A stretch of DNA of 64,000 nucleotides. Source: Apostichopus japonicus (lineage: Eukaryota; Echinodermata; Holothuroidea; Aspidochirotida; Stichopodidae). The stretch spans positions 27,852,564-27,916,563 of the forward strand of contig NC_092571.1 in the NCBI RefSeq assembly GCF_037975245.1, in the 5' to 3' direction. The notes beneath the pieces are model-generated. The model had not been told where the DNA came from and did no database searches. It saw only the letters and a program-made list of their open reading frames with translations. Positions within the stretch are counted from its first letter, which is position 1, and every line of letters starts with the position of its first letter. The translations under genes were made by a program, and so were the position numbers. Positions 279 to 54,516 of this stretch are shown one piece after another.

Positions 279-3200
279 CTTATATCTCTCGCATCAATGT
301 AAGAATATTCAAATTCAAGAGTATTCGAAGGATCAGCGAGATCAGACTGTAAGGCGTGCTCAACGAGGGTAGCCGTGTCTAACGCCAACACTTCATCCAC
401 AGTGAGTTGGCCTTTGCCCTCTGGATCTATAACATCCCACGCCTGCACATAATAAGTATGAAAATATGTTCAACAAAACCATTACAGCCGTACAGGTGTT
501 TTAGAGTTTTATTCATTCTTTCATTCGTTTGTTCGTTCATTGACTAATTAGTTAATTAATTCATTAATTCGTCCAGTCATCTATTCACTCATTCGTTCGT
601 CTGGTCATATATTCATTCGTTGTTCCAGCCATCCGTTGATTCATTCGTTCAGACATCCATCTCTTCGTTCGTTATTCCAGTCATCCATCCATTCATTCGT
701 TCGTCCAGTCATCCATTCCGTTCAGTGTATACGGTTGTCTCTTATTCACAGTACAAACTGAACAAGCCATGTACATTTAGGTGATAATAGCAGCTGTAGG
801 TTTTCCGGGTTCATCCACAAGCACAGAACTAATGATAAACACGTACATACCTTTAATAGAGAGTTTATGTAGTCATCGGACACTCTGTCTGGGAATAGTA
901 GCAGATATTGTTCTAGAAACATCTCTTTCGTCGCCAATCCATAATACTCTGCTTTCTTGACATAGTTTGCTCTGTTAAGGAATAGAAATGTAAGAACCAG
1001 ACATCACATATAAACAATTTCAAAGACCGTTTGCGCGGTGATTATGCCTTAGACCAGAGGTTCCCTAACTGGGGTGCATGAACCCCCATGGGGTGCGTGA
1101 GTCCATCCCAGGGGTTCGTGAGACAGTTCTGAAAGTCAAAATTAGAGTCCTTTTTGTTGAGCTAAAATCTGATATGTCATATAATTTAGTAATGTACAAA
1201 AGTCGTACCTTTCGACAAACTCTACAATATTACACTATGAACTTGATCTTTTACGAAGCACTGTTATGCGTATTATAGTATAATAATGACTCAGATCGTA
1301 TCTATAAAAGATTGGGGTTCGTGGGCAACTCTGACATCCACAGGGGTTCGTGGGGGATAAAGTTAGGGAAATCCTGCCTTAGACCCATAGCTCACCGTTA
1401 GGGTATGACTCAGTCTATGCCATGGGGTGCTCAATATGTAGCCCGCGGGATAAATCCCTCCCGAGAGAGATGTCAGTCCGGCCCACAAGTTGAACATTAA
1501 TCAAGTGTGCGGATCTTAAAGGCCTTAGGCTTGAACACCCCATACACTGGACTATCCTGCACCGACAATGCTCATATTTAGGTATAGAAAATAGTGAAAC
1601 TTGGAATCTGTCTGGCTCTTTGAGCCAATTCATGCTATTCTCTGACCTTCGAAGAGAGTCAGAAAAGCTTGTTCTTTACTGTTGTGTGATAAGTGATGTA
1701 CTTCAACATTAGTGACGTCATTTGTGACGTCCAGACTCTTGCAATATGGCTGATTAAAAGACATTTTAACGCCAAACATACCCTTGTTAAGCCCCCCCCC
1801 CCCCGCACTGCCCGACAGATCGGGACCCGGCTCAATACGACAGTCGTGGATCGTCGGGGAAACTGACATTTCCGAATGGCATTTGGCAAGGTGCGGGGGG
1901 GTCACGGTAAAAACTGTCCAATCTTAACAAAATGTAACCAATCACCGTACAGCAATTGTGCATGTGACCTAAGCGAGCACCGGTCGTTAACAGAATGTAG
2001 TTGTTGTATGGGGCTTTTCAGTCGTTTGGTTTGCTGGGGTCAGTTTTAGATTGTGGTTTCTTCACGACTATCGCACACTACTATGTCACGAATGTCGAGT
2101 TAAAATCGAGGCTGGGCCTTCATTTGGGCATTGTGCGGTGGACTTAAGTCAATTGTACTAGTAATATGACGTGCATAATTAATTACTTAAGATTCCACAC
2201 GTCCATGTTACCCATGGTCATAATACCATGGCCCGGCCAACTCCAGAGCACTTCCATTTCATTAAGAGGGATATTTCGTTGGTTTTCTCTATCACAGCCG
2301 TTATCCTCAAATGTTTGAATACGTGAGAAAAGCATTGAAACAGCAACGTTCATGGTATCAAACGAATCAACTTGATGGTAGTAACCTGTAGAGAGAATGA
2401 AGAAACCCAAAGAAACAAATATATATCTGCAATGATTCCATTTAAAGTTTGGTCTTTTAGTTTTGTAACACATTAAAAAAAATACATGGAAGTGTATTAT
2501 AACGTTCATGATATCTAAAGAAAAAAATCCACAAAAGTAGCCTGCTTGTAGGTCTTTTCAGTCACTTTTCCAAACGGTTAAAATAAAATTGGATGGATGT
2601 TTAGTTTTAAAGTTCCTACTGCAAAAATGTTTTGTGTTGCGTTTTGTATGTTTTAATTTAAGCAACACCAAAACACACAAATTACATAAACAGCTAGACG
2701 TTCTTGGACTTCCATCAGTTTTCATCTACATGGGCCGGTATCGAACATGGTTCATAAATACAACTTGAGACTAAATGTAATACAACTAACACTGTAACTT
2801 AGATTATAGACAAACCACAATAACATGTTTATAATAAGCGGAATCTCTGAAAGGGAGAACGTGCCCTCACACTTATTACACAACCAAACGAGACCGGTCC
2901 AGGTAGTATCCACTATCCACCCACTATCACTATTTTCTTTCGATGAACAGAAGCACTCTGCACCCCATACCTTCCAATGAACTTAATCAATGTAATGGCT
3001 TAACTGCAATACTTACCCTTTGGCAGGAACAAACAATCTCCAGCATATAGCATGTAGTCTGAATAGTGTATTTTTGTAATATTTGGAAACCTGAGTAAGT
3101 CGACTTGATTCACATTTATGTCAGAGCGCCCTCCTATTTCTCGATCTGGTTCATATGTTTTATGGATATATGGCTCATATTTGCTATCAACAAATTTCCA

Positions 3201-3779
3201 TCTTTTAGTTCCATTCATTAGACAATTTATCTGATTAAATGCATCTTTGTGTAAGACACTCTGTGAGTCTCCTGAGCTCATCCACAGATCGACTTCGACT
3301 ATTCGGCCTCCCATGTTTCCACAAGACATACACGATAACACCGTCACATCGCGGTACATCGGTTCCGGTAACTGTGACACAATATAAGAATCAGTTTGGT
3401 GGTAATGTTTAAGAAAAGAACCTAGTTTGTCCCTTCCTAATCCCTCTGAACCGACCGGTATCCTACTAGTAGCTTCAAGCTTTCCTTCCAAACGGACTTC
3501 AAGGCTTCCGTAGTGTTTGTCGAGATACTCTTCCGTCCACAAATCGAGAGCGGGACTTTTCCTCGCTGCACCTCTTAATATAAGAGGGGTCTCAGGTTTG
3601 ACATATTTCTCCCAAAATGTCCAAGGGTCCGGAATGACTTTCGTTTCCTCGATGAGGACATCAGCTCGGCGGTGTCCCCCGAAAGGCTCCATGTGACCTG
3701 TCGGTATCCCATCATCCTCCAATGCAGCTCTAACCCCGGAAGTGACGTACAGTGTAAGAAGAGCAAACGTGGGTAACAT
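279..3779 (-). CDS. Secreted/ER JmjC-domain oxygenase with EF-hand (paralogue A, partial)
   Basis: Coding exons on the minus strand are 3779-3017, 2385-2187, 971-851 and 442-279. All have GT-AG borders and compatible phases, giving 415 codons before the gene leaves the window on the left. The start is the Met followed by a hydrophobic signal peptide (LPTFALLTLYVTSGVRA). The JmjC/cupin_8 core carries the iron ligands H177-K-D179 and H258 (in YYHQV), and a Lys in NGTKRW is a candidate 2-oxoglutarate contact. After the core, D367 to E378 (DPEGKGQLTVDE) fits an EF-hand loop: acidic at 1 and 3, Gly at 6, Leu at 8, Glu at 12. Known of the family: such enzymes hydroxylate or demethylate proteins. 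The signal peptide argues for a secretory-pathway substrate, which is an inference. It is divergently paired with the complete paralogue at 7605. Exon 3 here does the work of exons 3 and 4 there. Human JMJD8 is an ER-lumenal JmjC protein but lacks an EF-hand, so orthology is uncertain. Confidence 0.85.
511..728. repeat. Degenerate minisatellite in JmjC A intron 3
   Basis: Imperfect units close to CATTCATTCGTTCGTCCAGT, with variable ATTAATT and CATCCAT spacers, fill the intron between the exons at 279-442 and 851-971. Confidence 0.75.
1055..1376. mobile_element. hAT (Charlie-like) MITE, 322 bp, in JmjC A intron 2
   Basis: The left end reads CAGAGGTTCCCTAACT and the reverse-complemented right end CAGGATTTCCCTAACT. 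Both are flanked by the perfect 8-bp direct repeat CCTTAGAC (1047-1054 and 1377-1384). The CAG start, the TTCCCTAACT body and the 8-bp duplication are classic for hAT elements of the Charlie type. The interior has no transposase and contains several GGGGTTCGTG copies. It is a non-autonomous insertion. Confidence 0.9.
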
Positions 3780-6700
3780 GTCGATGTATCTCGTGCGTTC
3801 TTCACAAAGTTATTAGAATACAACCGATATCTCAATTATTCCTCTATCCGGGACTTGATGTTCTGAGATGGCGAGTTGGTATTGACCGTGACATTGAAAC
3901 AAAAGAACAAAAATACTAACACTGCTAATGATACTAACAGCAACAATATAACATTTATAAAACATTATTATAATTTAGGTGACGCTACATACGGTAATAG
4001 TAAACAAAAAAAACAGGTTACATAAACTCCCGTAAATCACATAATCTCCTCATTTGAAAGATGCTAAACACAATGAACAATTCAGTTTGTCACTTTTTTG
4101 CTTATCGGTGACGTCATGTTACGTCATATTTTCCTGGCTTAATTCACTGTTCATTGAATATTATGGTAGAATATTGCAGTTTGTTGTTTCTTTACTTCAA
4201 GGACATGTCTAGCGTGCATGTAATACTTTTCACCCCCATTAAGAATTACGAAAATTCGGATTTCAGTTGAAAGAAATCATTGACCCGTTACTCTCGAAAG
4301 AGACAATACATTATCTTTTTTTGCAGTTTTCGGCAAGTATAACGTTACCCCGAGCCAAGTGAAATATTAACCGGATTTACCCCGCGGATTTCGTTTGCAA
4401 AGTAAAGTCACGAAAACAAATATATCGGGGGAGTTCCACTATATGCATTGAAGACAGCGTGTCGCGCCCTGAAAAAGGTAACTTTCCGTTGCTTGCAAGT
4501 GAAGTTTTCTGCTTGTCGCTACAAAATGCAGACAGTAATGAAACGTGATACCTTGTTAACTCTAGCTGGACCTGAGGTGTCCATCGCTGTATCGTTTGAA
4601 CACTGTGCTGTGGGTATTGACCGCAGCTGTATGTACTAACTGTATACTAGTGTCTAATTACCGAAGGTAGCAAGTTGTGTGCGTATTTTCTGGGATCGAT
4701 GGTGGTGTCTAAAACTTCCGTTACACCTCATTCGAAAATAGGTCAGATTACCGGCATTAACCGTTTCTTTTTGCGCGAGTCTTCACACCCTTTAACGTCC
4801 AAGCAATGATGAGACCTCAAGGAAGTCTACTGTGTTTTGCCCTAAACTCACCCCATAGCTTACCCTACCCACCCCCTTGTTGAACTAGTTTTCAGAGCCT
4901 CGCTTTAAATGCCTATGCCTTTCTCTCTGGCATAGACATCTGAGTCACATCACAGGATGATGTCATCGAAGAATATAGCGCCTGAGCACGAATGCCAAAG
5001 TATGTTCACAGTAGCACAAACAGTGCGCTCTCAGTCCCAATCCAGGGCCTCAACAATTGAGAGATGACCAGGGTTGCCATGTGGCCGTCCATTAATCATT
5101 TTACAGTAATGATTTGCAAAACAGACGTGGTACAGCATCAACACCATTGACATTATAGTATGCATGAGTCGGCCAACTAACCCCCTTCCACCCCTGCCCC
5201 CCCCCCATGAAAAATAATATGTGTCGGGGCCTCTGCCGTCCCCTTACATTGGACCTACCAGTGACCATTGAATTTAACGATGTCTGAGGTCTAGTGGATA
5301 ATCCCGATTACCTTGGAAGGCATGACCAGATATATACCCACACACATTATCTTATAAATAGGCCTAAATATCCAAGAGATAAGTGTGTAGGCATTGGTAT
5401 ATATTGACATAGTCTACTCACCAGTCACCATCAACAATATATTTCTGCACAATATACTTCTACACGCTATTATTGGCAAAAACCTTTAAAAGACACAGGA
5501 ACGTAACACGAAGATTCCTATCTGTATATGTAGAGCAGTCTGGTTATAACGCTCTGATTTTGTCCAAGGCAGTTGCATATAAACAGGGCTAGGTAACATA
5601 CCAATATGGTACGCACGTATTATAAGATCGCATTTCACATGCAAGAAGAGAATTTACCTGGTATATCCGTTCACAGCTTGTTTAGTATTAATTTCAAGTG
5701 TAGCGTCCCAGCGAACAGCTCCAAACAGGTTGATGGTATAGTTATGATAAATCTCACGTCGCCTTCAATACCAGGGTATAAAAACATACGGTATGTCTCT
5801 ACGTGTAGTAAAACACGCCGCAGTTTATGATATCGTGTTGAGGTAACACACTGAGTGAACCATACATGGGTACGACTTGACATCAATATAGCTTCCACCT
5901 GTTGACCTCGACGTGTGCACTTCCTTGTAACGGGAATCTACCAAGATTCCCATTTCATGGAAGTATTGAGTAAAGGTTTTTTATCACCAAGGCACCAAGC
6001 TGTGAGTTTACTACACTGCAGGTTTGGGTATTTTTTATAGACTATAGTGTGCTACAGTATTGTACATAGAAGGGGCTGATAGCGCTTCTGCGAACTACCT
6101 CCCTGTTCATAGATTATGATAACTTTCTTCGTGGTGACGTTGGTTGAGGAATTTACTTGATCTAATCATGAGGAAACAGCGCGTACCATGTCAGTCGAGC
6201 AGCGATACAGGCCTATAGTATAGGCAACCAGTGTCCGATTTGTGGAGTTGATCCCTTGTTCAAACAGAACTGCAGACTACAACGTACCCAGTGTTGTTCG
6301 AGATTAGCCAGTTACTACAAGTGGTAAGTAGTGGCCGTAACGAAGTTTTAGCCTGACTCTGACCAAAATCTACAGAAGAGATCTCACTACTGAAAGTCTA
6401 GTTCAATCTCCGGTATATAATAATTAAGTCATACAGGGTAAATGCATGGCAGTGTATGGCGAAATGATACTGATTTATAGAGGCCTGATAATATATAGGC
6501 TACCCTTCTGAATGTGTAAGCACTAATGTGTACACAATGACTCCAAGTTCCTTCTTCATGTTATTGTTCAAGTTTACAAGGTTGCAAGTTACCTGGAATA
6601 ATTGTGTGTTCAATACCTTCAATTTTTCGGTCTTGCAACCTTATTGTTCGAGGGTGTCGAAAACAAATCCTGATTGCTCCTATGAAGAAACCCTTGTCAG

Positions 6701-7142
6701 CTAGGGTATGTAGGTAGGCCACATTAAAGCAGCAAGTAACGTAAAGGGAATTATAGGCACTCGTGACACGAAAATTGCTAGATATGCTAGACGCAATACG
6801 ACGTGGCTTGCAGGGCATACGATATAAAGGATAATATTGGGAAGAATTATTTAAGTGTCGATAAAGACCACGTATGGAGAGAGAGCTATATATAGCTAAA
6901 CTATATCGGTGAATAGAGCGTACCGATGCGCGCACTTGAAGTAAATCGTCGATTATGGCAAGCCAACTGGGCCAATAACGGCTGTCTAGAAGGCAAACTC
7001 GAAAACAAACAATCAATGCAGCCCTTTTCACTAATGTGATGCATTAACAGGCGTCTAACATAAGTAAAAAACAATGCACTGTTCAATATATTTAAAGATC
7101 TGCTTTATTGGCTCCAATTATACTGTAGCACGCTGTAGCAGA
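3780..7142. other. Intergenic region between divergent JmjC genes
   Basis: Contains the dispersed repeat at 4476 and AT-rich sequence. No exon was recognised. The 156-codon minus-strand frame near 6561-7031 has no familiar motif. Promoters of both genes must lie in this gap, or in the MITE-like repeat that follows it. Confidence 0.6.
4476..4797 (+). repeat. Dispersed repeat, copy 1
   Basis: About 320 bp matching 45,343-45,661 at high identity, from AACTTTCCGTTGCTTGCAA to TCTTCACACCCTTTAA. It sits between the divergent JmjC genes. No coding potential is preserved between copies, and no terminal repeats were found. Confidence 0.85.
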
Positions 7143-7420
7143 GGAAAGTTTTGTGATTACGTAATCGACCTGCCAAGGTCGTAAATCGACCTCAGGCTCT
7201 ACAATTAGCCTGCATAGCTTCTTAACACCATTAGGCTCTTTGTGTTTTTCACTGTGTGGAAATATGTTCATGTCTACAGTTTAGTTAATCATATAAGTTT
7301 ACACAAAGACCCTCATACAAGAACAAATACTGTATGTGACAGGCGTTGCAGACTAATTGGTAAAAAGAGGTCATTTTACGACCAAGGCAGGTCGATTACG
7401 TAATCTCAAGAAACTTTTCC
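7143..7420. mobile_element. MITE-like inverted repeat next to JmjC B start
   Basis: Two imperfect arms of about 50 bp (7143-7193 and 7367-7420) are reverse complements of each other. They share the core GATTACGTAATCGACCTGCC, then GGTCGTAAA and ACCTC further in. Similarity seems to continue slightly outward (CACGCT on both sides). The 170-bp interior has no ORF. This is the form of a small non-autonomous DNA transposon. No clear target duplication could be placed, so the superfamily is unknown. Confidence 0.6.
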
Positions 7421-7434
7421 ATGATAGCGTGGGG

Positions 7435-7441
7435 TATATAT
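7435..7441 (+). promoter_or_regulatory. Candidate TATA box of JmjC paralogue B
   Basis: TATATAT lies about 165 nt upstream of the chosen start codon and just past the outer edge of an inverted-repeat element. A 5'UTR of roughly 130 nt would follow. No transcript evidence is available, and AT-rich heptamers are common in this DNA. Confidence 0.3.
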
Positions 7442-7604
7442 GGGGTCTATACAGCAAACCTTTAAATTTAAAAACTTAGTTTGACGGGAAAAAAAACTAT
7501 TTTGACAATACCAGAATTCTTTTTGAAATAATCACTTTGCCTTGATTCCACAGCTTCATCAGCCGAATATGCACATACAGTATTCTCAACTGAAAACAAA
7601 GAAT

Positions 7605-10600
7605 ATGGAGATATCGTTTTGCCAAAGTTTTGTCCAAGTAGTTTGCATATTGGTTCATCTCTTAAGTAGCCAGGCGTTTACCAGTCAACATATTGCTGGA
7701 CACAGAGAAGAACTGGGTAAACATCGACCACCAGAAGGTCATATCAATATTTTCGACGAGCTACCGAACTCACATGTATTTTGGGATGATTATGCAAGTA
7801 AACGAAAGCCCGCCCTCTTTCGGGGAGTTGCTAAACAATTTCCCGCATTTCAACTTTGGACTGATAAGTATATGCTCGAAAATTACGGAGATTTTAAAGT
7901 CAAGATTGAAGGAAAAACAGAAAAGGACCATTACCCAGAGGGGGAACTAGGTTTGGCACAGGATACATTACGTCACTTCCTGTCGACATATCAGACGAGA
8001 AACGCATACATCGTATCACAACTTCCCGATCCGTTAGCCTCAGACATTCTAGTCTTGCCGTTTCTAAACTGTGGTACTTTTCGAGAGAGGATATTGGAAG
8101 CCAATTTATGGTGGAGCAGCGGAGGTACAAGAAGTCTTCTTCATCGGGATGCAGATAACGCTATTAATTGTCTCCTCAATGGAACCAAGGACTGGGTCCT
8201 TATAGATCCCTCTTACGAGGATCTTATACCAATAGCCAAAGAGAATGTAGATGCATATGGAGGATTCTCTTTACTGAATCCTGACAGTGTTAACTTAGAG
8301 CGGTTTCCATCGTTCCAGCAGGTCCCTTGGTGGTATGCCAATATGTCAGCGGGGGATTGCTTATTTTTACCGTACGGTAAGGATTGTGTGCAATTGATGA
8401 ATTAATGTCAGACTTATTTCATACTCGTAATTATAACATAGTTTATCTGTACTCACGGTACCCGCTCGCGTGGATTCGGTACTCGCCCTCGACGTACTCA
8501 TGCATCTTGGAAATCTAGTATATATAGAAAACAAGTCAAAGGATATGTAATTGGTACTCACGCATTGTGATCGTATTCATAGCAGACTTCTCAGTATTAT
8601 GTAGTCCGTACTCGTATAGGCGAATACATTTTCGATACTGGTACTCGAACTCTTTCTCATAGTAGTCCTATACTTCTACTCGTCCTCAGAATGGAAATCA
8701 TTTCTTCACACTAATACTCATGGTTTTGTAATCATAGTTACCCAAACTGCAGGACGCTGGACTATCATTGGTCGGCCTATGCTCGGGTCGTTTTACTCAC
8801 ATTGTATTGAGTCATACCAATATCAAATTCTACTCTATACTCACATGTCATACTCGCATCAAAAATCTGATTTATATGCCATATTTGTATATTATAAACA
8901 CTACTCACTCTGACATGTCCCATTATTCTAACAATTAAGATTGCTTACCATTTCTCTCCATGCTCGCAACGAGTTTTCCTCTCTAATTGGTATACAGAAC
9001 AGGCAGTGGTCACCAGTTCATCTGTATTCTTCCCACTTGACGTGAATCAAAGCCGAACCGTTTTCTCTACATTCTTGTTTGCCCACAGTACTAAACTAAA
9101 GTCCGCCATTCAGGACTCATTTTGGGCAAATGCAATTATGTTTTGGCCGTTTGTGTGTTTCACGCAACAGTGACCAACACCCTTCCCCACCCCCCCCCAC
9201 ACACCTCATCACCACACTTATTTCACAATTTCATACAACCTACAGGTTACTGGCATCAAGTTAGATCCCATGGATCCAAAAACCTCGCAGTCTCTGTGTT
9301 ATTTTCACGACTACAAGAAGTTGACCTGAAGGAGTGCGATGAAGCTGCGCCAGAGTTTATCGCCCTCAGTAAATCTCAGATGGTATTCCACTACGATGGA
9401 TTCGGGGATCAAACTATGGGAAACACTGATCCATTCGAATTAAAGTAAGTCATCACACACGATTCAATCAATTCATTGTAATCGAATACGATCCTGACTC
9501 ATGGATGGTGGATTCCCTTGCTTAGTTACCGGCTCGGACCGGTGCACCGCTGGTCGCAGAGGTGCCAAAAGTCTTCGCTAAGACGAAGTGAGGAAGGACC
9601 CCGATTTCCTCCTGGTCGAGAATTGTGCTACGGTTCACCCGAATCGCCGAATTTGCCGCTTGTTGCAATGCCCCACCACCACTGGTTGGAACAATGAACC
9701 CGTAGCGTTTTATATACCCCCCACTCCCCCGCCCCAATCAGTCCCTGCCTGAACTGATTGTTTGTCACTCCAAGATTACATTTAGCGGTTGTACCTTAAA
9801 AATATCACATTCATTCGAGTTTGACTTATTTGTAATCACGGAGCTACAAAAGCTCAAACGTCCGCTGATCCAAAGCTTGCAAACACGGAATAGCTCATTA
9901 ATGATTCAATAGCTTAATTAATTGAATAGCTCATTAATAATATAATAGCTTAGTTAATTGAACAGCTCATTAATGATATAATAGCTTAGTTAATTGAACA
10001 GCTCATTAAAGATATAATAGCTTAATTAATTGAATAGCTCATTAATGATATAATAGCTTAGTTAATTGAATACGGTAGCTCTTTAATGATATAATAGCTT
10101 CGTTAATTGAATAGCCCATTAATGATATAATAGCTTAGTGAATTGAATAGCTCATTAGTGAAATAATAGCTTAGTTAATTAACTGTATTGTAATTTGAAC
10201 AGAATGTTGTTCTTAATGTGTTCCCATATAGCAGATGTCATAAGGCGCCGTTGGTAAATCATAATTAAAAGTAAACCCAATAAAGCACGTTGTCTCTTAC
10301 AGATATGTTGTGTGGGGTGGAAGGGGTGGGGGGTGAGGGCGTGTGCGTGTGCTTTCGACGAATGTACCTGACAACAATTGCAGCAAGATGTATGGTAACG
10401 TCATGATAATTCAAATAACATTTTTTCTTATTATTTATATCATTTTATACCCAAAGAATTCTCAGTATTCTTACAAAACGTTAGCATCTTGATAAAGCGA
10501 CACGATGACGTAACGAATCACATAATGCGTGTTTACTTTGATTTTCACAGAGATATGTTACTGGAAGTTTGCCAAGAAAACGGTGCAGTGAGACAACTGG

Positions 10601-13600
10601 AGTTACACCAGATGATGCTAGCTGTAACGCATAAACAGTTCTTTTCTTTTTCAATTTTTATTTTATCTTTCATTTATTTATTTTATTTATTTATTTAAGT
10701 ATTTTTTTTTTTTTGCCTTTACAGGGTATTTCAGGGAAAAAAAAAGTTAAGTCTGATATGTCAAAGAGGAAAAACTTATAAACAAATGTGTGTTTTAGAT
10801 GTATAACTAACTATACAAAACAAAATATGTTTTTAATTCAAAATTTGAAAACAATTAGGAACCCTCAGAATACGAGTATACGTTTATGTTTACTGGTGCT
10901 TGTGTAAGCTTTACAATCCCCATGGTAACAATAGAGGGACAACTAAATAAAGCAAAACATGTTTTATCAAGTGTACATCTATGAGGTTACGTCCACTTGT
11001 TACATGATCACTTATGTTGCCTTGTACGAACTTCGAATGAACATATCATCGAAAACATCATAGAAGAATTGAAAGAAACTTTCATCAGGATAATGAGATT
11101 AAATTCCTCACTCAAAAGGCAATACAATAATGTCACCTCTAATCTTTCTTTTGCGAGATCACCTAAAATATAAAAATAAACCTGCATTTAATATGTTACA
11201 TATAGAGCAAAGCATTATATACGTTTAAGCAGGAATTAGGCCTAGGGCCTATAGATTAAAGGGATTTTTGTAGTCAGATCGGATTTGATAAAAGTAGGAT
11301 AGAAAGATATACAAATAAGTGACAGAAAATATCACATTGGGTCACTTGCAGTTGCCATTTTATCGAATTTACTGTATTCCAATACATGATACCAGGCGTG
11401 TAGCCAGGAATTTGCCAAGGGAGGGGCGAATCTGTAAGCAAAGTATCGGAGCCGTAGATTCTGCATTTAAAACTATCTAAGCGTAGCGCCACCACAAGTT
11501 GGCGCTACGCGTACAAGAAAATTTTGGCTGAAAAGGCCTCCCAGATCGCTGGAAATGGCTCTTCCCAGTCCCTGTAAGGCCTTGCATCTAAGCTTGAAAA
11601 TAAAAACATACAAAAAAAACATACTCATGGGGGAGGGGGCGGTCGCCCCTTTCGCCCCCCCCCTTGGCTACGCGCCTACATGATACCCGTTCGTAGTATG
11701 ACGTCATAGATAAGGAGCACGACGTTTTCTGTAAAACTTAGCAATTATTTGACAGTTGTTTCTTCAGTGAGTTCATACGAGAAATATCTTGGTATGAAAG
11801 AGCATAGAAGTTTGCTTTTTAAACTTTACGTCACTTTCGGTCCCAAAGCACATTCTAACCCATTCATAAGTGTAAAAGTTAACAATGTTCAGGACCCCTC
11901 CTCTACCCCATCTCCCCCCTCCACTTCCTCCCCCTTCCCCATTCAATTAGTTCGGACAAGATCTGTTATAACTCAGTATAGTATTGTCACTTTGTGGAGT
12001 CTACTTAACCTATAGTTAAGCTTCGTCTTTCGTGATAAATGTACACGTCTCATCGCACCCTCCCCTCCCCCACCCTACCCATTTAGCCAATCAATACTAT
12101 GCCCCACCCCCTACACAAATGCATCCCGAATCGTTATATCTGTGTAGTTTCTGTCAGTATTTACAGCTGTAATGATATATTATTGATTCTGCCTTAGGGT
12201 TACAACGAACTGGATGGACTTGATATTCAACCGGCAGATCGTGATGTCGAAATCAATAAAGAAATCATTGAGCAGGTAATATGTTGTTATTCTTGTAAAT
12301 TGAGCTTTCGACACTGCACAGTACTGGAGTATCCAATAGGCGGGCAAATGAATAGGGGCCCTACCAGGGTCGATCAAGGGCCCCATGATCAATGTGAACA
12401 ATTCCAGGCAAGATATATATGACATCAACTTTTTTATTTATCATTGGAAAAAAGTTATGTGCCATGGAGGGCGGTGGGGCGAGGGTTCGGTATGGTGCCT
12501 GCAAATTGCAAATAAGGAGAATTAAGGTCCCAAACATATAGTGCCTTATGACCCCAGAATATCATAATCCGCCACAGTTGCTGAAGTTTTCTTTCTCTTT
12601 ACTTTGACCGAATTAAAATCATATTCCATCTGTATTAATGTGAATCTTTGTATATAAACACGTCCACCGATGTACCGACGTGCACCACTGCAGGAATTGA
12701 TGTCTTACCTTAGTTATTGCATGTTCAATCGATAGCTTATGGCGGTTCTCGATCAAAGCAATTCTGGAGAAGTGTCATGTGACGTAATCAAGAGCTTAAC
12801 ACTGGACACGCTTACCGTGCTCGCTGACGTCATCGACCATGATCCTGCAAACACTGAATCCTATGAATATGCAAGATATGACGCAAGCGACATCAAGTAA
12901 GTAAAATGAAGCCGGAAGTGTGTAACGTAAAACTGAAGTGATTATATGTCAACTTGTATTTCAATGGCGTGATAATTCACTTACTTAACACCCGTTATGA
13001 CGTCACTAAAAATTGCGTTGGGACGCCAAGAAGCTCTTATAAAAAATAGTTTTTTATTACTCTTACTTTTGTAAAGCTAGCATAGATATTCCAATATGTA
13101 TATCATTTTATCATTTAACATTTTCAAGCCGAATTTGAATGTACAGTTGCCAGATCCATTCACAGACTTAGACCAGAATTTGGAAAACTCATATAAGCAA
13201 CGTTCAGTCAACCAAAATACCGTATTGCTTTACATCGATTATATTCATTCAGTTTTAAAAATTTGATTTAAGCTACTGTATGTATGACAGAGAATGAAAA
13301 CCTTATCATGACTTCCTTGACTATTTTGTATTTTATTAGGGAAGTATTACTCAAAGTTGTTGAAGAAGCTGAACGCATAAATGAGGGCATCGTGACGTCA
13401 CAGATGATAATACATCATTATCAATATATCGGTGGGTCGACGAGAGTAGCGATGGAAGTGAGTTGCTTGTCATTGTTTTCTTTGCAAGGGACTCGGGTAG
13501 TAATAAACTCATGCGATAAGTCTTAGCCTTAAACGTATGTGTTGTTAATTCCAGGAACGCACTGCCTGTCATCTCTCTTCCCCGAGGCTCCCCAAACATC

Positions 13601-14752
13601 ATCATCGCAAACCTCCCTTTTGCCAAATGGCGCCAAGTGTTGTGTGCACTGAAGTACATGTAGGCCTATACTGTCAGTCTTGAAAACAGCTATTTCCCGC
13701 CATTTGATCACAGCAATAATTACGCTATCTCGCAAGCTCAGTTGACTATAGTTCATGGAAATAAAATAACTCACCCTCCTGTTTATTTGATTTATCTATA
13801 TTTACTAAATACTCTCTAATTATATCTAGCAAATATTACGAATCCGTTCTGCTTTTAAGCTTAAAATATTTAGGACTGGTCCCATGCAACTTGAAGCAAA
13901 CACTTTTTTTTCCTTTTCTGGTTTCTATTTAATTTTCGACTATTCTATGTTTTATTTCAGATGTTCACACTGTTGAATCCTTACAACAAAGAAGAACTGA
14001 TGCAGTCCGACATATTGGACAATTTAGAAACAGTTATTACAAAGTTTGAAAAGAAAATGAAAGAATCTATATCACAAGGTAAAACTGGGAAAGGGTAAAG
14101 AGGGTGGTTGAGGTGGGTCAATTATTCCCCCCCTATAGCTCCCCTCATTCCCATGCAGACTTATATGGCAGTAACATATTTACAAACGTTTTGCCAAAAC
14201 CAAAATATTACCAAATACGAGTCTTGTGCCCTTTAGTTTTACATTGAACTTGTCCCCACCCCACCCCCTCCCTTCCCTCTCCACCTCCAACTAAGCATTC
14301 TTAGCTACGGACCTGTATTGTTAGATAAATTAACAAGTCATGTTTTCCTGTACTTTATATTTCTCTCAATGGGGGCAGGTGGGGTGGGAGTGGATATGGT
14401 ACCACCATATTGTGACATATGCAATGCTAGGGAAGTGCATTTCTAGTTTGAGTAAGCAGGGCTGCCTTGTCCTACGTTTTTTGTTCAGTTGGATGTTCCT
14501 TTAGTTGGTAAAATTTGCATTCAAATATTTTAAACATTTTTGGTTCATGGCTAATAGGTAATGACTTGATATTCATCATTTTGTTATTCTGTAACAGAAC
14601 AAGAGTGGCAGGAAGCCCTGAAGGAGGGTCCGTTACCATGGCAATCTAAGGATATAACAGATGAACCAAAAACCAAGGATTTGCCGATCACTAATCAAAA
14701 TGAGGATAGTCACGTGATAGTGAACGACCAATCAGACCACGATGAACTCTAA
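7605..14752 (+). CDS. ER-lumenal JmjC-domain oxygenase with degenerate EF-hand and HDEL tail (paralogue B)
   Basis: Eight coding exons: 7605-8376, 9246-9444, 10551-10623, 12198-12275, 12736-12896, 13340-13457, 13961-14078 and 14598-14752. They total 1674 nt, or 557 aa plus TAA, and every junction is GT-AG and in phase. An in-frame Met lies 63 nt upstream at 7542. The Met at 7605 is preferred because a signal peptide begins there (MEISFCQSFVQVVCILVHLL). The JmjC core has H180-R-D182 and H261 (in YWHQV), and NGTK offers both a glycosylation site and a Lys. Residues D380 to V391 (DQSNSGEVSCDV) are an EF-hand-like loop that lacks the Glu at position 12. The tail is acidic and ends HDEL, an ER retrieval signal. 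The predicted role is a lumenal Fe(II)/2-oxoglutarate-dependent protein hydroxylase; the substrate is unknown. The first two exons match paralogue A in phase, and exon 2 is exactly the same length (199 nt). Confidence 0.9.
8422..8906 (+). repeat. Cluster of TACTC pentamers in JmjC B intron 1
   Basis: Fourteen TACTC copies occur in 485 bp, mostly followed by A or G, at irregular spacing: 8422, 8450, 8480, 8495, 8555, 8609, 8642, 8677, 8715, 8794, 8831, 8838, 8851 and 8902. The stretch starts about 45 bp after the exon 1 donor. Confidence 0.6.
9889..10180. repeat. 36-bp minisatellite in JmjC B intron 2
   Basis: About eight units combine AGCTCATTAATGATATAAT and AGCTTAGTTAATTGAA. One unit carries a 5-bp CGGTA insertion. 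The repeat has no coding sense. Confidence 0.92.
11393..11678. mobile_element. hAT-type MITE, 286 bp, CAGGCGCGTAGCC family, in JmjC B intron 3
   Basis: The left end is CAGGCGTGTAGCCAGG and the right end CCTTGGCTACGCGCCT plus one changed base. The flanks are the 8-bp repeat CATGATAC on both sides (11385-11392 and 11679-11686). The interior contains a hairpin around GGCGCTACGC and a C-rich run. It is the same family and orientation as the element at 50,074. It has no coding capacity. Confidence 0.85.
12736..12896 (+). other. EF-hand-like exon of JmjC paralogue B
   Basis: Exon 5 begins LMAVLDQSNSGEVSCDV. Positions 1, 3 and 5 of the loop (D, S, S), Gly at 6 and Val at 8 fit EF-hand geometry. Position 12, normally Glu or Asp, is Val, so calcium affinity is doubtful. 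The paralogue exon at 279-442 has an intact loop and the same end phase, so the motif is ancestral and has decayed here. Confidence 0.6.
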
Positions 14753-20500: not shown

Positions 20501-23500
20501 GTTAGCATTGACATTTTGCCTTGCTGTGGTTCATCAATGGAGTAGCTATAAGGCAAAATCACTGCAGAGACTTTGTCAGAATTATTTTTAAAATTCGGAC
20601 ATGACTTACTTCCCCCTGGGTGCTCAAGTAAGATACACAAGAAGGGGACACGTGCCAATAAAGTTGTCTCTGAGATAAAGCCTGCATAATAATTGCCTGT
20701 TAATTATAAAATACCATAATCCTATGTGCACTGACAATAACCAATGGTGTGATGACGTTACCATAGTTACATGCTAATTAAGCAACAGCCAGCCACCTGT
20801 CAGTAGATTTCCTATGCTGGAAATGAAACTTTATGAATATTCACACTCTACAACCATAGCAAGTAAGAAACCACACTTAGGTTCAGTAAATAACAAGTTT
20901 AGGCACCTCTTGGAAGATATTAAACACTATGTTTTTCTTGACATTTGTGATGCATTGGGGTTGACCTAATATGGTGCCTGATAAGACTCAAGTCGTCAAG
21001 TCACTTTATATAAATAGTCATATATAGTCATATATCCAAACTGAAAGGTAAGAAAGTACAACATGGACTGATAGTGGTGTGTTCTTGAATGGCAATACAA
21101 CATATCAGAATTAAATTATGTGTCTAAAGTGACCCTTCAACGACGACAGCCTTTACTGCCCAAAGTGACCCTTCAACGACGACAGCCTTTACCGCCGAAA
21201 GTGACCCTTCAACGTTGACAACCTTTCCTGCCCAAAGTGACCCTTCAACAACAACCTTTACCACTAAAAATGACCCCTTGAAATCCCCTCTCCTGTACCG
21301 AGTGAGATTCAAAACAGACACTGCCTTAAGTGACCCTTTGATTACGACGGCCTTTACCGCCCAAAGTGACCCTTTGATTACGACGGCCTTTACCGCCCAA
21401 AGTGACCCTTCAAACCCAATCTCCTGTACAGGGTGAGATGCAACACAGAGGGCCTTTATTGCCCAAAGTGACCCTTCAAACCCCATCTCCTGTACATGAT
21501 GAGATGCAACACAGGCGGCCTTTACCTTCTGATGATACAGCCTCCTCGCCACATGAGAGCAATTCCACCATAATTCAAGTTCCAGTTAAACTCTTTGGCA
21601 GCCTCTCTCATCAACATGAACCCCTGAGCGTAGGAAACGATCTTCGAAGCATACAGAGCCTGCAGATTGTAGTAACATAAAAAATGATGAGTTTCATCAA
21701 TGAGGAAAATATCTGACGAAAGAATTTATAGATGTAGAAAGGATTTATAGATGTAAACAGGGATTTCTAGATGTAGACAGGATTTCTAGATGTAGACAGG
21801 ATTTATTTGTTTGTGAATTACATCTTACATACAGTTGTAACTACTTTTTACATCGGCGTAGTTATTCGGAATGATTCAGTGTGCCCTGCCCAAATTTTTC
21901 ATCAGATCCGACATTGAATCGAATATTAGAACATAGGCCCATGGTATACTTAAATCATTCCTACCAATCCCCTTGTCTTAAACTAAAAGTGGTTGTCCAC
22001 TTTAAAAGGTTAAGCTAATAAAGCCATTATGCCTTGATCAATAACAAAGAATGTCATAGTTGGAGGTTTCCAAATATGATACCAAACAAGAGCATCAATG
22101 ATGCAGTATCTCAATACTGGAAGTTTTAATTTTGATTCCTAATTTCAAATCTTTGCTCTGTCTCTACAATTATCAATATCAATCATGGTACAACAAATAC
22201 ATAACTTGCATTTTTGCTACTTTGCCACGAATAGTCTCTGCAGGTTACACTTTATCCTGCTAGTCTTGCCTTTAGCGCTCATTGCCTGTTAGTCGAAAGA
22301 ACGACATTGCAAGGTTTAGTAATGTCATAGAATACCTAAGAACTTGTTTTTTATGTGGTATCCTTCATCTTAGGTCAGTCTCTGTTGGACTTTTTGGTCA
22401 TATAGTTTGACGTCAATGACAACAGCCAAATTAGAAGAGGCGAACAACTCGACCATATTCTTGATGCCTGCCTTGAGAGCTAGGCCTATTGACCTATGTA
22501 TGTTACTGTAGTGGTGACTACCATCAAAACTGTGTCCATTTCTAGATATCAAAACAACCCACGTTTTTCCATCTCAATTTTTGGACATGAAGATTTCATG
22601 GATTTATGACTTGGAAAAAAATAATGTAAAAGAAGATTACAAGTTTTTATATGCAAGTGATGGGTGGCCTCCTCTTCCCCTAATAGCCACCTCAGTTCCT
22701 CTCAATTTTGTTATTTTATTTTAATTCTTTGTACATTTGATGTCAAACATTACAGGTTCAAAAGAAAGCTAAACATACTTCATATAACCTTATACATCTT
22801 ATATCCTTATAAATAAAACATAACCTTATACAATTTTTATAGTCTTATAAAAGTTGTGATGCTATGGCCGGCTCCTCTTTTATACGTACCCATCAAACAA
22901 ACTTACCCTGGTCCTTCCTAGGAAAAGCTGTCTGAACACCAGTACAATGCTAATGTGGCTATCACTGAAAGCCTAATAGGCCTAGGCTTATATATATATA
23001 TTTTTTAAATGCACTAGGCCTACAGTAAGTAGCCTTCAGAAATACAAGAATGTGTATACGTAATTATACAAAATACATGAAGGGCAATCAAACAAACTTA
23101 TCATGGCCCTTGCTCTGAAAAGCTACCTGAACACCAGTACTATCCTTAAATGGAATTCAGCAGTACAGAATGTAATTAGCATGCAATACACTAACACCTC
23201 GCGTACCTAACTACACTACAGAAATTGGTCGCGAGCGTAGCCATTTTCGTGTAGCTGTTATGAGTCATAGCCAATCTGCTACAAAACAGACTTGGGGGCG
23301 GGGCTTAATCATCAAAAACGGACCTTTTTACTAATAGTAGGGGCGGCAGCTCAGTGTTGTTTTAAGAAAGAAAAATCATTTAACCATCAAATAAAGCAAA
23401 TAAAAGCCATAAAATGTCATATACAGGTAGTAAAATTCTTATTAATACCTACCTGTAAACAACAAATGAAAGTTTAAAATGTTAATAAAATATATAATAC

Positions 23501-26500: not shown

Positions 26501-29500
26501 ATTTTTGTCAAAGTAACAGGAAATCAGCTAATATCTGAAATTACCTAGCACAACGCTATGCAAAAATGGGCAAAATTGCTACACGCATCCAAAGATGAAT
26601 AGCTGGTTTGGCAAGGGATTCTTAATGGTTGAAGTATTTACTGATAACCAACATACACAATACCGCCAAAATGCTACATAAATTTCAACATTTTATTTTC
26701 TGAAACCATCTTCAAATTCCTGGGAATGAGTGTTACACATGGACTATGAAACAGAAGAACCATACAAAAAAAAATTTCTTGTCTTTCCTTGAAAAATGAA
26801 AAAGTTCCTTAGAGGAAATGAAAAAAACACTCACTTCGCTAATTTTATCATTGTCCAAACCGAGGGCGCCCTTCATGACATGGTACGCCTCACAAATGAG
26901 TTGCATGTCACCATACTCGATACCATTGTGAACCATCTTAACAAAGTGACCTGCACCTTCTTCCCCCACCTGACGAAGTGAAAGAGAAAATTTGTCAGTT
27001 ACGAGACCCTTTGTCAAACAGGTCTCCTGTGACAAACAGACAGAAGTACTCAGACAGCCTATTACAAAGAGAACTTAGCCAATGACAAACAGTCTTCAAA
27101 GGTCACCAGGTCACCATAGACATGAAAGAGCAGGAGTGAGGTAAGGAGTGAGGTAAGATGTGAGGAGACAGGTAAGCAAGGAAGTGCATTATATACGTGT
27201 CCACACAGCAAATCAAGCATTGGTATTAGTGGATTTGTGTGTTCCAACAATAATGACCGACATAGAATAGGAGTCAACTCATTGTGTTTACAATGAGCAC
27301 AAATGTGAGACAAACCTTAGGCAGATATGAACCATATTGGCAGAGAATTGTGTATAGAGTACACTAATGTGATAATCAACTGTACATATATTAACAGATA
27401 ACTCTAGTTTTCTCTATATTAAGTTTGTTTTGTTCTGTTCTAGTCAGGTGAATCTCTGTGGTTCATGTTTTTAAGTAGCAATTGATATGGGGAAAGGGGG
27501 GGGGGAGGGAGAGGGAGACAAAATTGCTTCTGTATTGTTGTTCATTTCATGTACTAGCATTACAGTAGCCCTGGCTTAGTTGTGCAATTTATTGTAAGGT
27601 TAATTTGGGTTCACTTTCAGTATTGCATAATGAGAGTAACAGAAAGAGTCTGTCAGTTATATCTGGGTTCTAGAAATAGGCCAGTTATCATACCAGCTTA
27701 GTTTTTAACCTTTTTACCTTGAATGGGTGGGATATAATTATTACTCTGTGGGAACTTGTGGAATAATTGTTCACATTGCTATTAGATGATTTCAACAGTC
27801 CTCCCATTTTTGTTCTGAGAATGTAATTCTTGGGTCTGATATCGAAATAATGATTCAAGACCTTATAAATGCAATAGTTAATTGACAAGGTATATACATA
27901 GAAAATATTGTCAATTCTACTCAAAATTTCTGATCGATAAACACACGTAGGCACTTAAGATGGTAGAATGAGAAGAAGGGACATGAAGGGTGCACAGTGT
28001 TAAAAGTTAACCATGGAGGCACGGTAGAATGGGTGCTAAGGTTGTGAGGAGACAGGTAAGCGAGGAGCGCAGTATGTATGTATGTATATGTGGTCTTCCC
28101 GCAAGCAGGAACTCGCGAATTCTCGCGAACTCGCGAGCTCGCGAACAGTAAATTATACGTATATAGAAAATGTTGTCAATTCTACTCACCCAGTCGCAAC
28201 ACGGTTCAGTTCCGACCTTGGCAGCAATGCCCTGAAAGATGGGCTTAATATGAGGCCTGAAAATTAAAACAAAAGTCACATATCAAATATATCTCTCTAT
28301 GATGCTCTCCATATGTGCTCTGTGTATCCTCATTAATCAATAAAAAAAAATATCAAAAATAAATAAATAAATAAATTCTTCCTTTTCCTGCATGAAAAGA
28401 TGTTTTGCTTACCAAGCTTCAGGGGAACCACCAGGCATAAGAGAGGGTCCATACCGGGCGCCATCTTCACCACCACTGACTCCACTTCCAACAAACAGCA
28501 TGCCTTTCTCTTCCAGAGACTTGCAGCGACGCTAAAAAAATACAAAAACAAACGTATTATCCCGTTGGACATATAAAATTGAATGAGCTTCGAGCTCTAA
28601 TTGTAAGGTGGATACCACAGTTTGATGGAGATTTATGTTGTTGCTTATATATATAATTTCTTCTCCCTGATATTCAAATTCTTAGCTTGATACGTTGCAA
28701 TACCTATGGAGCAACCTTGAGGGTATCTGATAAATATTTGATTTTACTGATGGAAAATCTTTACCAACATAGTAGACTGTGATAATTGCCAACATATCGG
28801 CCGCTATTATTTAAAAAGTATACTTCATGATAAGATGATCTCATTTGGAATATCTTATCCTCTGTTTCCGATCTTACTTTGCTCTTACTACTCTCTAAGC
28901 ATTCGTATTCTTTCTTTTCTCTTCCCCGTTTTTGGGGGGGGGGGTGGGGGAACAGGGTGAGGGTGCATTGTTAAGCATTTTTTGAAAGTTTCAGTTTCTG
29001 AAATATTATACTTAACTTGTGGCAAGAGATAAAAACTTGTTAAACACTTTAACCTATTTTTTTTTCCCTTAAAGTCACAGTGGTATGCTGACATTACAAA
29101 ATAAACACTTGCCTATCAGTAAAACACCGCCCGGTGCTCAAGTTTTGATTCATTACAACAGTTTATGAGAGGCCGAAAACTTATACATATAAATCTATGC
29201 TGAGAAATGGGTGGACCCAATTACTGCAAGAATGGACTTCCGTATACAACTCTGCAGAAGAGATGCCAGTGGCTCTGAAGGAATTTTGCAGCTGGACGAC
29301 TCGGGGGGAGGAGGGGGGAACTAACCCCTCAGATATGAGCTGTACAGTCAAGAGAGGAACCGTGAAGGAGAAGCCTTGCTGGGAAGTCTCTTCTTGAGTC
29401 AAGCTTTCAAAACCCAACGGTATGTCTTATTTTTCTTGTCGGGTCAGGTAGAGGGTGGAATGCTTACCAGAGTGTCTTGGTATTCGGAGTTACCACCATC

Positions 29501-32500
29501 AATAATGATGTCACCAGCCTCCAACAATGGAACCTATTGGCAAGAGATAATTTAATCCAAAAAGTCAAGTGACCATTTATACACCCACCTGTGTGCCTGA
29601 TATTTAAAAGTATTATGGGCAAAGAGTAAAGAAATTTATGGCTAAGACCATGCAGATTTGAGCCAGCGACCTCTGGATAACAAAGACCAGAGGGTCACTG
29701 GTCCTTTGCTCTTATCCATTGTTTGCAATTTCCCATTCAGTTTTCTGTTGTTCATACCCCTATTAACCCTACTCTCTCAGCTTGGTGCCAAACTATCTTA
29801 CAAGTGTCCACTTCCAAGGTACCTGTACTATTCATCACAAACTCTCACAGATTTCAAAACAGCCAGCAACAACACTACTTAGCCTGACCACAATGTTGTA
29901 TTAAGTCGTGATACATAAACACCTTGCTTCGTTTGCGGGTAAAAATCTGACATCCACAATGTTGCCCAACTGAAACTTTTTTCTAAAATATCTCAAACCT
30001 GTCAATGTTTGCATATTCATTAGTGACGAGCAATCCAGCCTCATCAAAACATTAGCACTTATTGTCCTATCAGGGCTTCCAGCTGTGGACTCTGACTTAT
30101 GATTCTACCAAAGTGTCTAGAAACAACTTCCGAACATTCACTTATGGTTAACTCCAGTCACCAGTTCTCTCTACAGTAGATGTGGTAGAAGGAGAACTTG
30201 TGCTAATCTTGTGAGGAGACAGGTTAGCGAAGCAAACTATACACTAACATATCCCATTAAGAACCAAAGACCAAACCTCTACTCATTGCCATGATCAATG
30301 TCCTCAAAATAAGCATAGTGATTCTTACCCATATCCCTCACACTAACCCCTCAATCCTCACCACACCCCCCACAACTCCCACTCCCATTACTCTCGTACA
30401 AACCCTACTTCTCACCAGTTTTTCAATAAATGCGTCCACAGCAGCGCCGGCCTTCACCAGCATCATGACCCTCCTAGGTTTCTTCAGGGTCGCCACCATC
30501 TCCTCCAGGTATTTAGCCCCAATCACTTTTGTACCCTTGGCCTCGTTAGCCAAGAACTTCTCCACTTTGTCGACCGTACGATTGTAGGCACAAACCTAGA
30601 GGGGGGTAGAAACAGTAGAAAAACACCATTGAACAACTGATTAAAGACAAGGTTGAAACTGAACCACAGAGGAAGAAATTTAGTTCAATGTATCAGACAT
30701 CACTGTGACATGTCTGCATTTAGATTACAAGTAGTTACATGTTATTACTCTGTAGTTATGGTATTGTAACAATGACTCCGTCTGCCCAAGTACTATTGAA
30801 ATCAGGCCCGTCGCACCCGCTACGGTAGGTACGGTATTTACCGTACCACTTTTCAGCTAAAAAAAAAGAGAGAGGGGGAGAAGAAAATAGGTGAGGGAGT
30901 TAGAAAATACAGTTCGAATCAATAAAAAGCACGAGTCTTCATGACCAAAGCCGACCCTCTGTACCATCATTGTGTCCTATGATGCGATGAGCCCCGGATG
31001 AGCCGGCACGAATTATTCAACGAATCTCAAGTTGTAACTGGGGCGATAGGGGCCTACGATTCGAGTCGCACCGAATTTCCCCAAACCCCCGAATTCCCCC
31101 CATTTCCCTAAGAAGGTGTCAAACCCGGAGATGTTTTACTTAGATGAGCAGTGTAAAAGTAAATACCATCCGGATAATTAGGGCAACGTACAATGTATAG
31201 GGCGTACCTGCGCTGCGCTACACCGGCAACTCAACGCAAAGGAAAGTGCCAGCCAGATTAGTTTCTGGTTCGGCCGCGGATATCATGCCTCCAGAATCAG
31301 TGGAGGACTACTTCAGGCGAATATACCTGGAGGCAGTTGACACCATTGTCAACTGCATCCGCGATAGATTTGATCAGGAGGGTTACAAAATCTACTCAAA
31401 ACTACAGCAGCTGCTTCTCAAAACGTGTAACCAACAACATGTTGACGAAGAACTGTTAAAATTCGTATGTGACTTTTACGGCGAGGATCTCCGTAAGGGC
31501 GAGCTCAGAGTCCAACTAGAAACCCTTGGGGAAACCATGGAAGCTACGGCCAAACAATCAGAGTGGACTTTGCCAGAGGTTGTTGACCACATGCGAGGGT
31601 TGAGTTTCGGTAATCGTGAGCTCCTCTCACAAGTGTGCACGCTTGTCAAACTAATTTTAGTGATGCCTGCGACAGATGCAGTAAGTGAACGCTCATTTAG
31701 TGCTATGAGTGTAAAGAGTTACTTAAGGTCTACAATGACCCAGCAGCGACTCAACCACCTTATGATCTTACATGTACACAAAGATTATGCGGATCGATTG
31801 AATCTAGTTGATGCAGCCAACGAATTTACCAGTGCCAAAGACCATCGACGCTCGGTGTTTGGTACTTTCCATTGATTTGAGTTCGCAGTAGAACGCTGCA
31901 CACTAACCGATAGCCGGTGCTCCTTTTAACAGCGCCCATGCCCAGGAGCCCATGCTCTTCAGTATAGTAGTCGTTGTGATACCGGGAGCTTATAGGAGCA
32001 TTAATTCCAGGAAGAAAGAGGGCTAAATTATACGAAAAATGCTCACATTTGCTGACCCTACAACTCTAATCCTCAACCCTAACAAAGGATACAGTAGATC
32101 ATCCTATACAACTGAATTGCTACAGGCAATCGGGTAATATCCTATATTCTGCGCCCCAACTGCAGAAAGAACAATGCTTGGAATTTGGAAATTGGAAAAA
32201 GTACTGCAGTATGGAGAGGATTCCACCCAGGTGTTGGTTGTCACCAACGCCGTAACGAAATAATCATTGTTAACGTTTATTGCATAATTTCAAAAGCCTC
32301 ACAGAGACTAACCGCACTCGGCGAAATCTTTGCTCACCCACAAAACATTTTTGAGGCCCTAACCTCAAAGGAAGGTAGACTAATTGAGGAATCATTTTAG
32401 ATAATCGTAACACTCATAAGAACTAGCAAAATTATCAAATTCGGATAAACTGTAACTATTCAGGTGCGTATCCAGGGGGGGGCGTTGGGGGCGCGCGCCC

Positions 32501-53346: not shown

Positions 53347-54462
53347 TTAATCCCAGGTGAGTGTATTTGGCGAAACTCCAGGCGGCATGACCTCTTGTTG
53401 GATTTGACCATACGGCGGTGCACATGGAGAGGGCATAGTCAGGGACTGTTGGTAGCACGGATTACCACTGTATTGTAAACGGGGCATGTGTGGGGTCGAG
53501 GCAGGGACGGGACCAGTCATCATTTGACAAGAAGGGTACAACTGAGGTTGTTGATGAGCTGGAATACCACTGACTCCGACGGGGGCCCAAGAGTTGTTGT
53601 AGGGGGACGGAGTGGCGTAGAAACTCTTAGCTCCAGAAAATGTATACTGATATGGTTGTTCGTGACCGAAGAATGCCTGATCTGTCAGTAGGTAGTGACG
53701 ATGGGGTCGTCTTACTCGTCTGCGACGTCTGTAGTTGCCTTTATCAAACATATCGTCATATGCAGGATCCAGGGTCCAATAATTCCCTTTACGTTCTCCG
53801 CTTCCGTCCCTTGGGATTTTAATGAAGCATTCGTTAAGGCTTAGGTTATGCCGAATGGAATTTTGCCATCCTTTCTTGTTATTCTCGTAGTAGGGGAATT
53901 TATGAATGATGTATTGATAAATCTGGCTTAGCGTCATCCTACGATCTACGGAGTCCTTGATGGCCATCGATATTAATGCAACGTAACTATACGGTGGCTT
54001 TTTAGGCTCTTCTTTGGTAGTCTTATTATTATTGTTAGTATGATTTTTATCTTCCTCTGTCGCAGTATTTTCTTTGGACTCTTGTTGAGGAGGTGAACTT
54101 TCTTCTGGTTTGTCTGAATGAGGAGAAGTTAATGGGTGCGATACGGCGCCCTGCGCTTGTGATACAATCCCGCCTATTGGTGTTACGATGCCCTCCATAT
54201 GAGATACTATGGCCGGTCTTGTAACCGAGTGCTGTGGGACGACGTTGTCCTCATGATACGTAGTAACTTTCTCGTAACTTGGAATAAGATAACGTGTTGT
54301 GAAATGATCTTTCGTTGGCGACATAGCCGTCGCTCTAGGTGATTGATGAGTTTGCGCAGTAGAGACAACAACTGTGTCAAGTTTAGTTCTCACCGTGGCA
54401 TCTTTGTTCTCTGGAGTAGAGAAAGGCTGAAACAACTGAGCTGAAGGTTTGGTAGTATCCAT
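53347..54462 (-). CDS. FOXL2: Forkhead transcription factor FoxL2
   Basis: A 371-aa nuclear transcription factor when started at the Met of MDTTKPSAQ. The frame is open upstream to a Met at 54,516. However, that stretch reads TTTTTTACCATTTTATACCTCAG in the transcript, a good splice acceptor, so the downstream Met is preferred and a 5' exon may exist. The forkhead domain (about residues 154-252) begins [15 protein letters not shown] and includes [18 protein letters not shown] and GNYWTLDP. The [10 protein letters not shown] to KGNYRRRRR ending is typical of FoxL2. The N-terminus is Ser/Thr/Pro rich with a GIV repeat and an NNNN run; the C-terminus is rich in Pro, Gln and Tyr. Vertebrate FOXL2 also has its coding region in one exon and acts in ovary development. 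Whether it does so here is inferred. Confidence 0.93.
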
Positions 54463-54516
54463 CAGCCTTTCGTTCTTTAAAATCTGAGGTATAAAATGGT
54501 AAAAAACAAAAAACAA

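Follow-up and report, generated by a model that had tools for sequence, protein, structure and literature searches.

A sea cucumber gene family predicted to join JMJD5-like oxygenase domains to EF-hand-homologous tails in the endoplasmic reticulum

A stretch of 64,000 nucleotides in the genome of the sea cucumber Apostichopus japonicus (positions 27,852,564 to 27,916,563 of NC_092571.1, which is contig C11 of a 671.6 Mb assembly; hereafter the window) carries two divergent genes, here called copies A and B, that raise a question: can a JmjC oxygenase reside in the lumen of the endoplasmic reticulum (ER) and carry an EF-hand on the same polypeptide, and does calcium then act on it? An earlier note on this DNA had read both genes as ER-targeted JmjC oxygenases fused to a calcium-sensing EF-hand, an architecture that it considered distinct. 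By modelling the two genes, searching the same genome for paralogues and comparing their domains with known families and structures, we find that the pair is part of a larger family, with six genes as a minimum: A, B, C, D1, D2 and E. These probably encode JMJD5-like ER-lumenal Fe(II)/2-oxoglutarate oxygenases with a C-terminal EF module, which would bind Ca2+ in D1, D2 and E and play a structural part in A and B.

The gene model of copy B, built from the DNA, joins eight exons of the forward strand (7605 to 14752) in frame into a protein of 557 amino acids, with AG/GT at each internal junction; the HDEL that the earlier note had placed at the end of this copy is indeed its C-terminus. At window 9888-10180, within an intron of copy B, an AT-rich repeat of 36 bases occurs about eight times. 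Copy A consists of four exons on the reverse strand (3779 to 279) that encode 415 amino acids; its internal junctions likewise have AG/GT, the phases of both gene models match, and the last exon is followed directly by a splice donor, so that gene A extends beyond the window. The two start codons are 3.8 kb apart, on opposite strands and pointing away from each other, and the divergent pair was thus correctly placed in the earlier note. Beyond the window we found a candidate last exon of A (C11:27836615-27836806), about 16 kb past its edge, which begins at an acceptor and ends in KDEL: it is the sole open frame on A's strand to end in -EL within 20 kb past the window, and the best of 166 frames when compared with the tail of B (score 41, the next 33). 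This exon is likely to be the end of gene A, judging from its frame and its resemblance to B.

An alignment of A with B shows identical residues in 152 of its 405 columns (38%; E 8e-86), and because both reading frames are open at so low an identity, both have presumably been kept by selection since the two copies split. That one or both of the window copies are decaying and unexpressed is suggested by the roughly 16 kb between exon 4 of A and its candidate last exon, and by the fact that no complete A tail could be modelled; we hold it to be very unlikely, as the long stop-free exons, the splice sites and the iron ligands have all remained intact despite the divergence of the two copies.

A search of the whole genome with the Cupin_8 model, under which JmjC domains of this kind are found, listed 14 exon matches, one of which, on contig C12, led to gene C. 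When gene C (387 residues, its ends removed) was used as the query, all 18 matches at E <= 1 fell within the six genes; these counts are lower bounds and six genes a minimum. Gene C (C12:14641036-14651666) has eight exons encoding 508 residues, with a hydrophobic start, an HFD...H iron motif and the loop DIDEKDYLTKEE; its tail runs through a long acidic and then a histidine-rich stretch, HGHGHDHHDHDEL, to the end HDHHDHDEL, and this C-terminus could, by its composition, bind metal ions. D1 and D2 are a tandem pair on contig C13 (4056623-4062828 and 4068198-4074558) and are 96% identical; D1 has 418 residues and D2 434, both end in RSEL, and D2 carries a poly-glutamate expansion beside its EF-hand. 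Gene E, on contig C21, has 419 residues and ends in KDEL. All four paralogues follow the same order, from hydrophobic start through JmjC domain and EF module to an -EL end. At two other Cupin_8 places, on contig C23, no clear member of the family emerged: the best match at one had E 0.002, and the other had none at E <= 0.01. Those on C7, C4, C13 (at 2.9 Mb) and C22 gave weak matches to the family as JmjC relatives. The notion that the A/B pair is an isolated oddity was rejected on the strength of the search with C and of the models of C, D1, D2 and E. In collections of viral and prokaryotic contigs no close relatives could be confirmed, an absence that says little.

In the Pfam scans, which covered A, B, C, D1 and E (D2 was left out), Cupin_8 spans residues 54-276 of A and 58-278 of B, and it scores 105.3 bits in A (E 6.5e-30), 115 in B (7.4e-33), 118.4 in C (6.4e-34), 125.6 in D1 (4.1e-36) and 123.6 in E (1.7e-35), all above the cut-off of 27.4. 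The first iron motif reads HKD in A and HRD in B and is followed in both by HQV; the HxD motif, the HQV and a lysine 15 residues after the first histidine are kept in all six genes. The complete HxD...H site that had been claimed for both copies is therefore present, in domains far above the cut-off. Against known structures (PDB), the JmjC domain is nearest to JMJD5/KDM8 (5e-25 with a profile of A, B and C; 1.6e-17 with B alone), then to JMJD7, with TYW5-type proteins and FIH further off. In JMJD5 the lysine at this position holds 2-oxoglutarate, and a further JMJD5 residue, an asparagine six residues after the first histidine, is found in C, D1, D2 and E. The likeness to JMJD5/KDM8 structures is confined to the JmjC region (residues 56-266 of B), and a separate JMJD5-like locus exists in the same genome on C22 (a 51-amino-acid exon piece, JMJD5 in PDB at 3.8e-15). 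NCBIfam gave no match for B, nor for C without its acidic tail.

At the sixth position after the first histidine, A has glutamine and B alanine. Because the JMJD5-type asparagine has been lost there, the co-substrate pocket or the activity of A and B may have changed, and the two could conceivably be lumenal pseudo-oxygenases or folding factors in which the JmjC fold serves as a binding domain, much as JMJD8 has been proposed to act in complex assembly and folding (PMC5684140). That the EF ligands have been lost from the same two copies fits such a role. All three iron ligands and the lysine are nevertheless kept, residues that a pseudoenzyme could lose, and we regard this alternative as rather unlikely, though it is the one to which we give most weight.

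How firmly can an EF-hand be read in the tails? In D1 (DIDRDGTVTKEE), D2 (DIDRDGMVTKEE) and E (DEDGDGFLTHGD) the loop has an oxygen-bearing residue at each of positions 1, 3, 5, 9 and 12; set against the canonical EF-loop pattern, D1 fits wholly and E everywhere except at the residue that follows position 12, and none of the three loops of A, B and C fits. At the same five positions A has D, E, K, T and E, B has D, S, S, S and V, and C has lysine at position 5, as in A. The best-scoring module, that of D1, reaches 25.5 bits with EF-hand_5 (E 8e-6), 0.4 bit under the cut-off of 25.9; the tail of C alone gives 18 bits with EF-hand_8 (E 0.0024, cut-off 28), and A gives 11.9 bits with EF-hand_6 (E 0.2, cut-off 25), or 14.4 bits (E 0.033) when its tail is scanned alone. 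The sole EF-type match of B is to the wolframin EF-hand model (14.1 bits, cut-off 27) and lies away from the loop. Compared with PDB, the D1 tail matches KChIP2 (2.9e-6) and other neuronal calcium sensors among the best 60 of 329 rows; the E tail matches calmodulin (0.0014), and the best 60 of its 163 rows are EF-hand or calmodulin-based proteins by name except for PrsA. When the tails of A, B and C are combined into one profile, 297 sequences match it at E <= 1 (best 6.6e-5), and the best 60 of these are all EF-hand proteins by name. Finally, in all six gene models a phase-0 intron stands exactly 5 residues before the aspartate that opens the loop, a strong point if not a wholly independent one, as some of the splices were placed with the aid of homology. 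Taken together, the EF scores of the paralogues, the tail profile and the shared intron point to an EF module that goes far back in the family and to wear of the loops in A, B and C. Since four more genes share the order of domains and the intron, the joining of JmjC to an EF-type module, in which the earlier note is supported, is not a splicing guess confined to B.

Several points weigh against this reading. In none of the five proteins scanned does an EF-hand model rise above its Pfam cut-off; B has no EF-hand match at its loop, whether the full protein or the tail is scanned, and E, whose loop is nearly canonical, reaches 13.4 bits at best (EF-hand_7, cut-off 30). In the tail profile of A, B and C no single stretch passes alone, the score being summed over the repeated EF-hands of the targets. 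Some splice sites were picked by eye or by homology (B exons 3 and 4; D1 and D2 exon 6; E exons 2 and 6), and exon 6 of D1 was second by score among its candidates, although the corresponding exon of D2 was first. RSEL, the end of D1 and D2, does not count among the standard retrieval signals. As for gene A, 96 of 2000 shuffles reach the score of 41 that its KDEL exon has against the tail of B, a modest similarity, and no convincing exon links exon 4 to it, leaving the tail of A incomplete.

Could the EF-hand resemblance then be due to chance, the tail being an unrelated helical domain? The absence of an EF-hand match above the Pfam cut-off in the proteins scanned, and in B of any match at the loop, is what one would expect in that case, and the earlier note had itself named the lack of an EF-hand score as a result that would speak against it: A and B taken by themselves come close to that result, and the EF-hand scores of the paralogues offset it. 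Chance was nonetheless rejected and is hardly credible, for the tails of D1 and E, genes that were found through their JmjC domains only, match EF-hand proteins, the combined tail profile does so too, and the intron occupies one position in all six genes. The EF-hand attributed to both copies thus survives as homology of the tail, with worn loops and without a model above its cut-off; similarly, of the two domains expected from a profile search of the 557-residue product, Cupin_8 appeared far above its cut-off and an EF-hand match at the loop did not. By their residues, the loops of A and B are EF-hand-like and degenerate: homologous to the EF-hand and not canonical.

The calcium-sensing tail proposed in the earlier note fares less well. 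Because lysine occupies position 5 in A and valine position 12 in B, calcium sensing by these two copies is unlikely, and A has in addition a glutamate at position 3. A gating of the JmjC site by their EF tail, as a sensor of ER calcium, would accord with the homology of the tail to EF-hands, with the aspartate 1, threonine 9 and glutamate 12 kept in the loop of A, and with the precedent of P4H-TM, an ER oxygenase that binds Ca2+ with a Kd of 23 uM (PMC7948501); with those two substitutions, and with no fit to the canonical pattern in A, B or C, we judge it improbable. We favour instead a family whose members would enter the ER and be kept there, and whose Fe(II)/2-oxoglutarate centre would act on secretory or lumenal proteins by hydroxylating their side chains. 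The EF module of D1, D2 and E would most likely bind Ca2+ at lumenal concentrations, stabilising or ordering the tail, and that of A and B, its ligands lost, would be structural, serving domain packing or contact with a dimer or partner. The bolder proposal, that the C-terminal EF-hand reads the calcium store and thereby sets the modification of secretory proteins, A and B having lost this calcium input, we consider unlikely, if a shade less so than gating in A and B themselves.

Residence in the ER is predicted from both ends of the proteins. The most hydrophobic 15-mer lies at the N-terminus in all six; for the window copies, whose signal peptides had been taken as seen, the hydrophobic N-terminus is there in both and its function as a signal is likely rather than established. 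At the other end stand HDEL in B and C, KDEL in E and the candidate KDEL in A. Three cysteines are invariant in a five-way alignment and a fourth is invariant in A, B and C, a pattern in keeping with a lumenal protein. As a prediction, the ER targeting of the pair is supported.

Among known systems, CREC proteins (reticulocalbins, calumenin and Cab45) resemble the family in being EF-hand proteins of the ER lumen, several of which end in HDEL; none is known to have an oxygenase domain. JMJD8, a JmjC protein with a signal peptide, resides in the ER lumen and has been called the first such protein (PMC5684140). It is described there as consisting of a JmjC domain only, which agrees with the earlier note's remark that it lacks an EF-hand, and the words KDEL and EF-hand are absent from the main text of that paper; by this description the sea cucumber family is set apart by its additional EF-homologous region. 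P4H-TM is an ER-lumenal 2-oxoglutarate oxygenase with EF-hands, which its authors expect to be saturated with Ca2+ under physiological conditions and to respond to a transient release of Ca2+ (PMC7948501), and the same reasoning may apply to the JmjC-EF family. As described, P4H-TM has another catalytic domain, preceded by its EF pair, whereas here the JmjC domain comes first, followed by the EF module and a retrieval-type end; no P4H model of Pfam is among the matches listed for A, B, C, D1 and E. The order of JmjC and then EF does differ from both JMJD8 and P4H-TM, so that the architecture is distinct to this extent, and with P4H-TM as a precedent the claim that it has no parallel was too strong. 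In the open-licence literature, judged by titles and the beginnings of abstracts, the combination of JmjC, EF-hand and ER retrieval was not found. If the proposed reading is true, JmjC chemistry in the ER lumen is broader than one protein, with at least six genes joining an iron site, an EF-hand and a retrieval-type end, and the series of loops, intact in D1, D2 and E and worn in A, B and C, is a natural set for testing the influence of calcium on a lumenal oxygenase.

How the window pair arose is suggested by its introns. In a phylogenetic tree A and B group together (support 96/95), while the deeper forks are weak and the root is arbitrary. A and B share their intron positions; one intron, in phase 1 at alignment column 282, is found in A, B and C alike, and C has four introns in a stretch that is a single exon in A and B. 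These positions would be most simply explained if introns had been lost in the common ancestor of A and B and an inverted duplication had come afterwards, and the two copies were probably made by such a local event. The exons of both copies and the region between them are listed in Table 1.

Table 1. Exons of copies A and B and the region between the two genes (window positions)
Feature	Position	Strand	Content
Copy A exon 4	279..442	-	EF-hand-like loop DPEGKGQLTVDE, residues 367-378, then helix
Copy A exon 3	851..971	-	helical linker; by eye, perhaps the site of a degenerate first EF unit
Copy A exon 2	2187..2385	-	GYYHQV (third iron ligand), end of JmjC; acceptor ctctacag, donor gtaatt, phase 2
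Copy A exon 1	3017..3779	-	start codon at 3779, hydrophobic N-terminus, most of JmjC/Cupin_8 with HKD; donor gtaagt, phase 1
Divergent intergenic region between the A and B start codons	3780..7604	.	from the gene models
Copy B exon 1	7605..8376	+	start codon, hydrophobic N-terminus, most of JmjC/Cupin_8 with HRD
Copy B exon 2	9246..9444	+	GYWHQV (third iron ligand), end of JmjC
Copy B exon 3	10551..10623	+	C-terminal helical region begins; donor gtaacg
Copy B exon 4	12198..12275	+	helical region ahead of EF loop
Copy B exon 5	12736..12896	+	EF-hand-like loop DQSNSGEVSCDV at residues 380-391, its position 12 ligand lost
Copy B exon 6	13340..13457	+	more helical region
Copy B exon 7	13961..14078	+	more helical region; covered by the weak match to the wolframin EF-hand model at residues 464-514
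Copy B exon 8	14598..14752	+	C-terminus, HDEL then stop

The remainder of the window contains other features. Tandem repeats of 36 bases and longer, with open frames on both strands, occupy 21126-21526. On the reverse strand, an open frame at 26736-27074 contains the beginning of the C-terminal domain of 6-phosphogluconate dehydrogenase (PF00393, E 3.7e-18) and is likely an exon of the gene for that enzyme; the C-terminal dimerisation region of a hAT transposase (PF05699, E 4.9e-8) lies on the forward strand at 31201-31872. A single long open frame on the reverse strand (53350-54546) encodes a forkhead domain (PF00250, E 1.5e-37) and resembles FoxL2.

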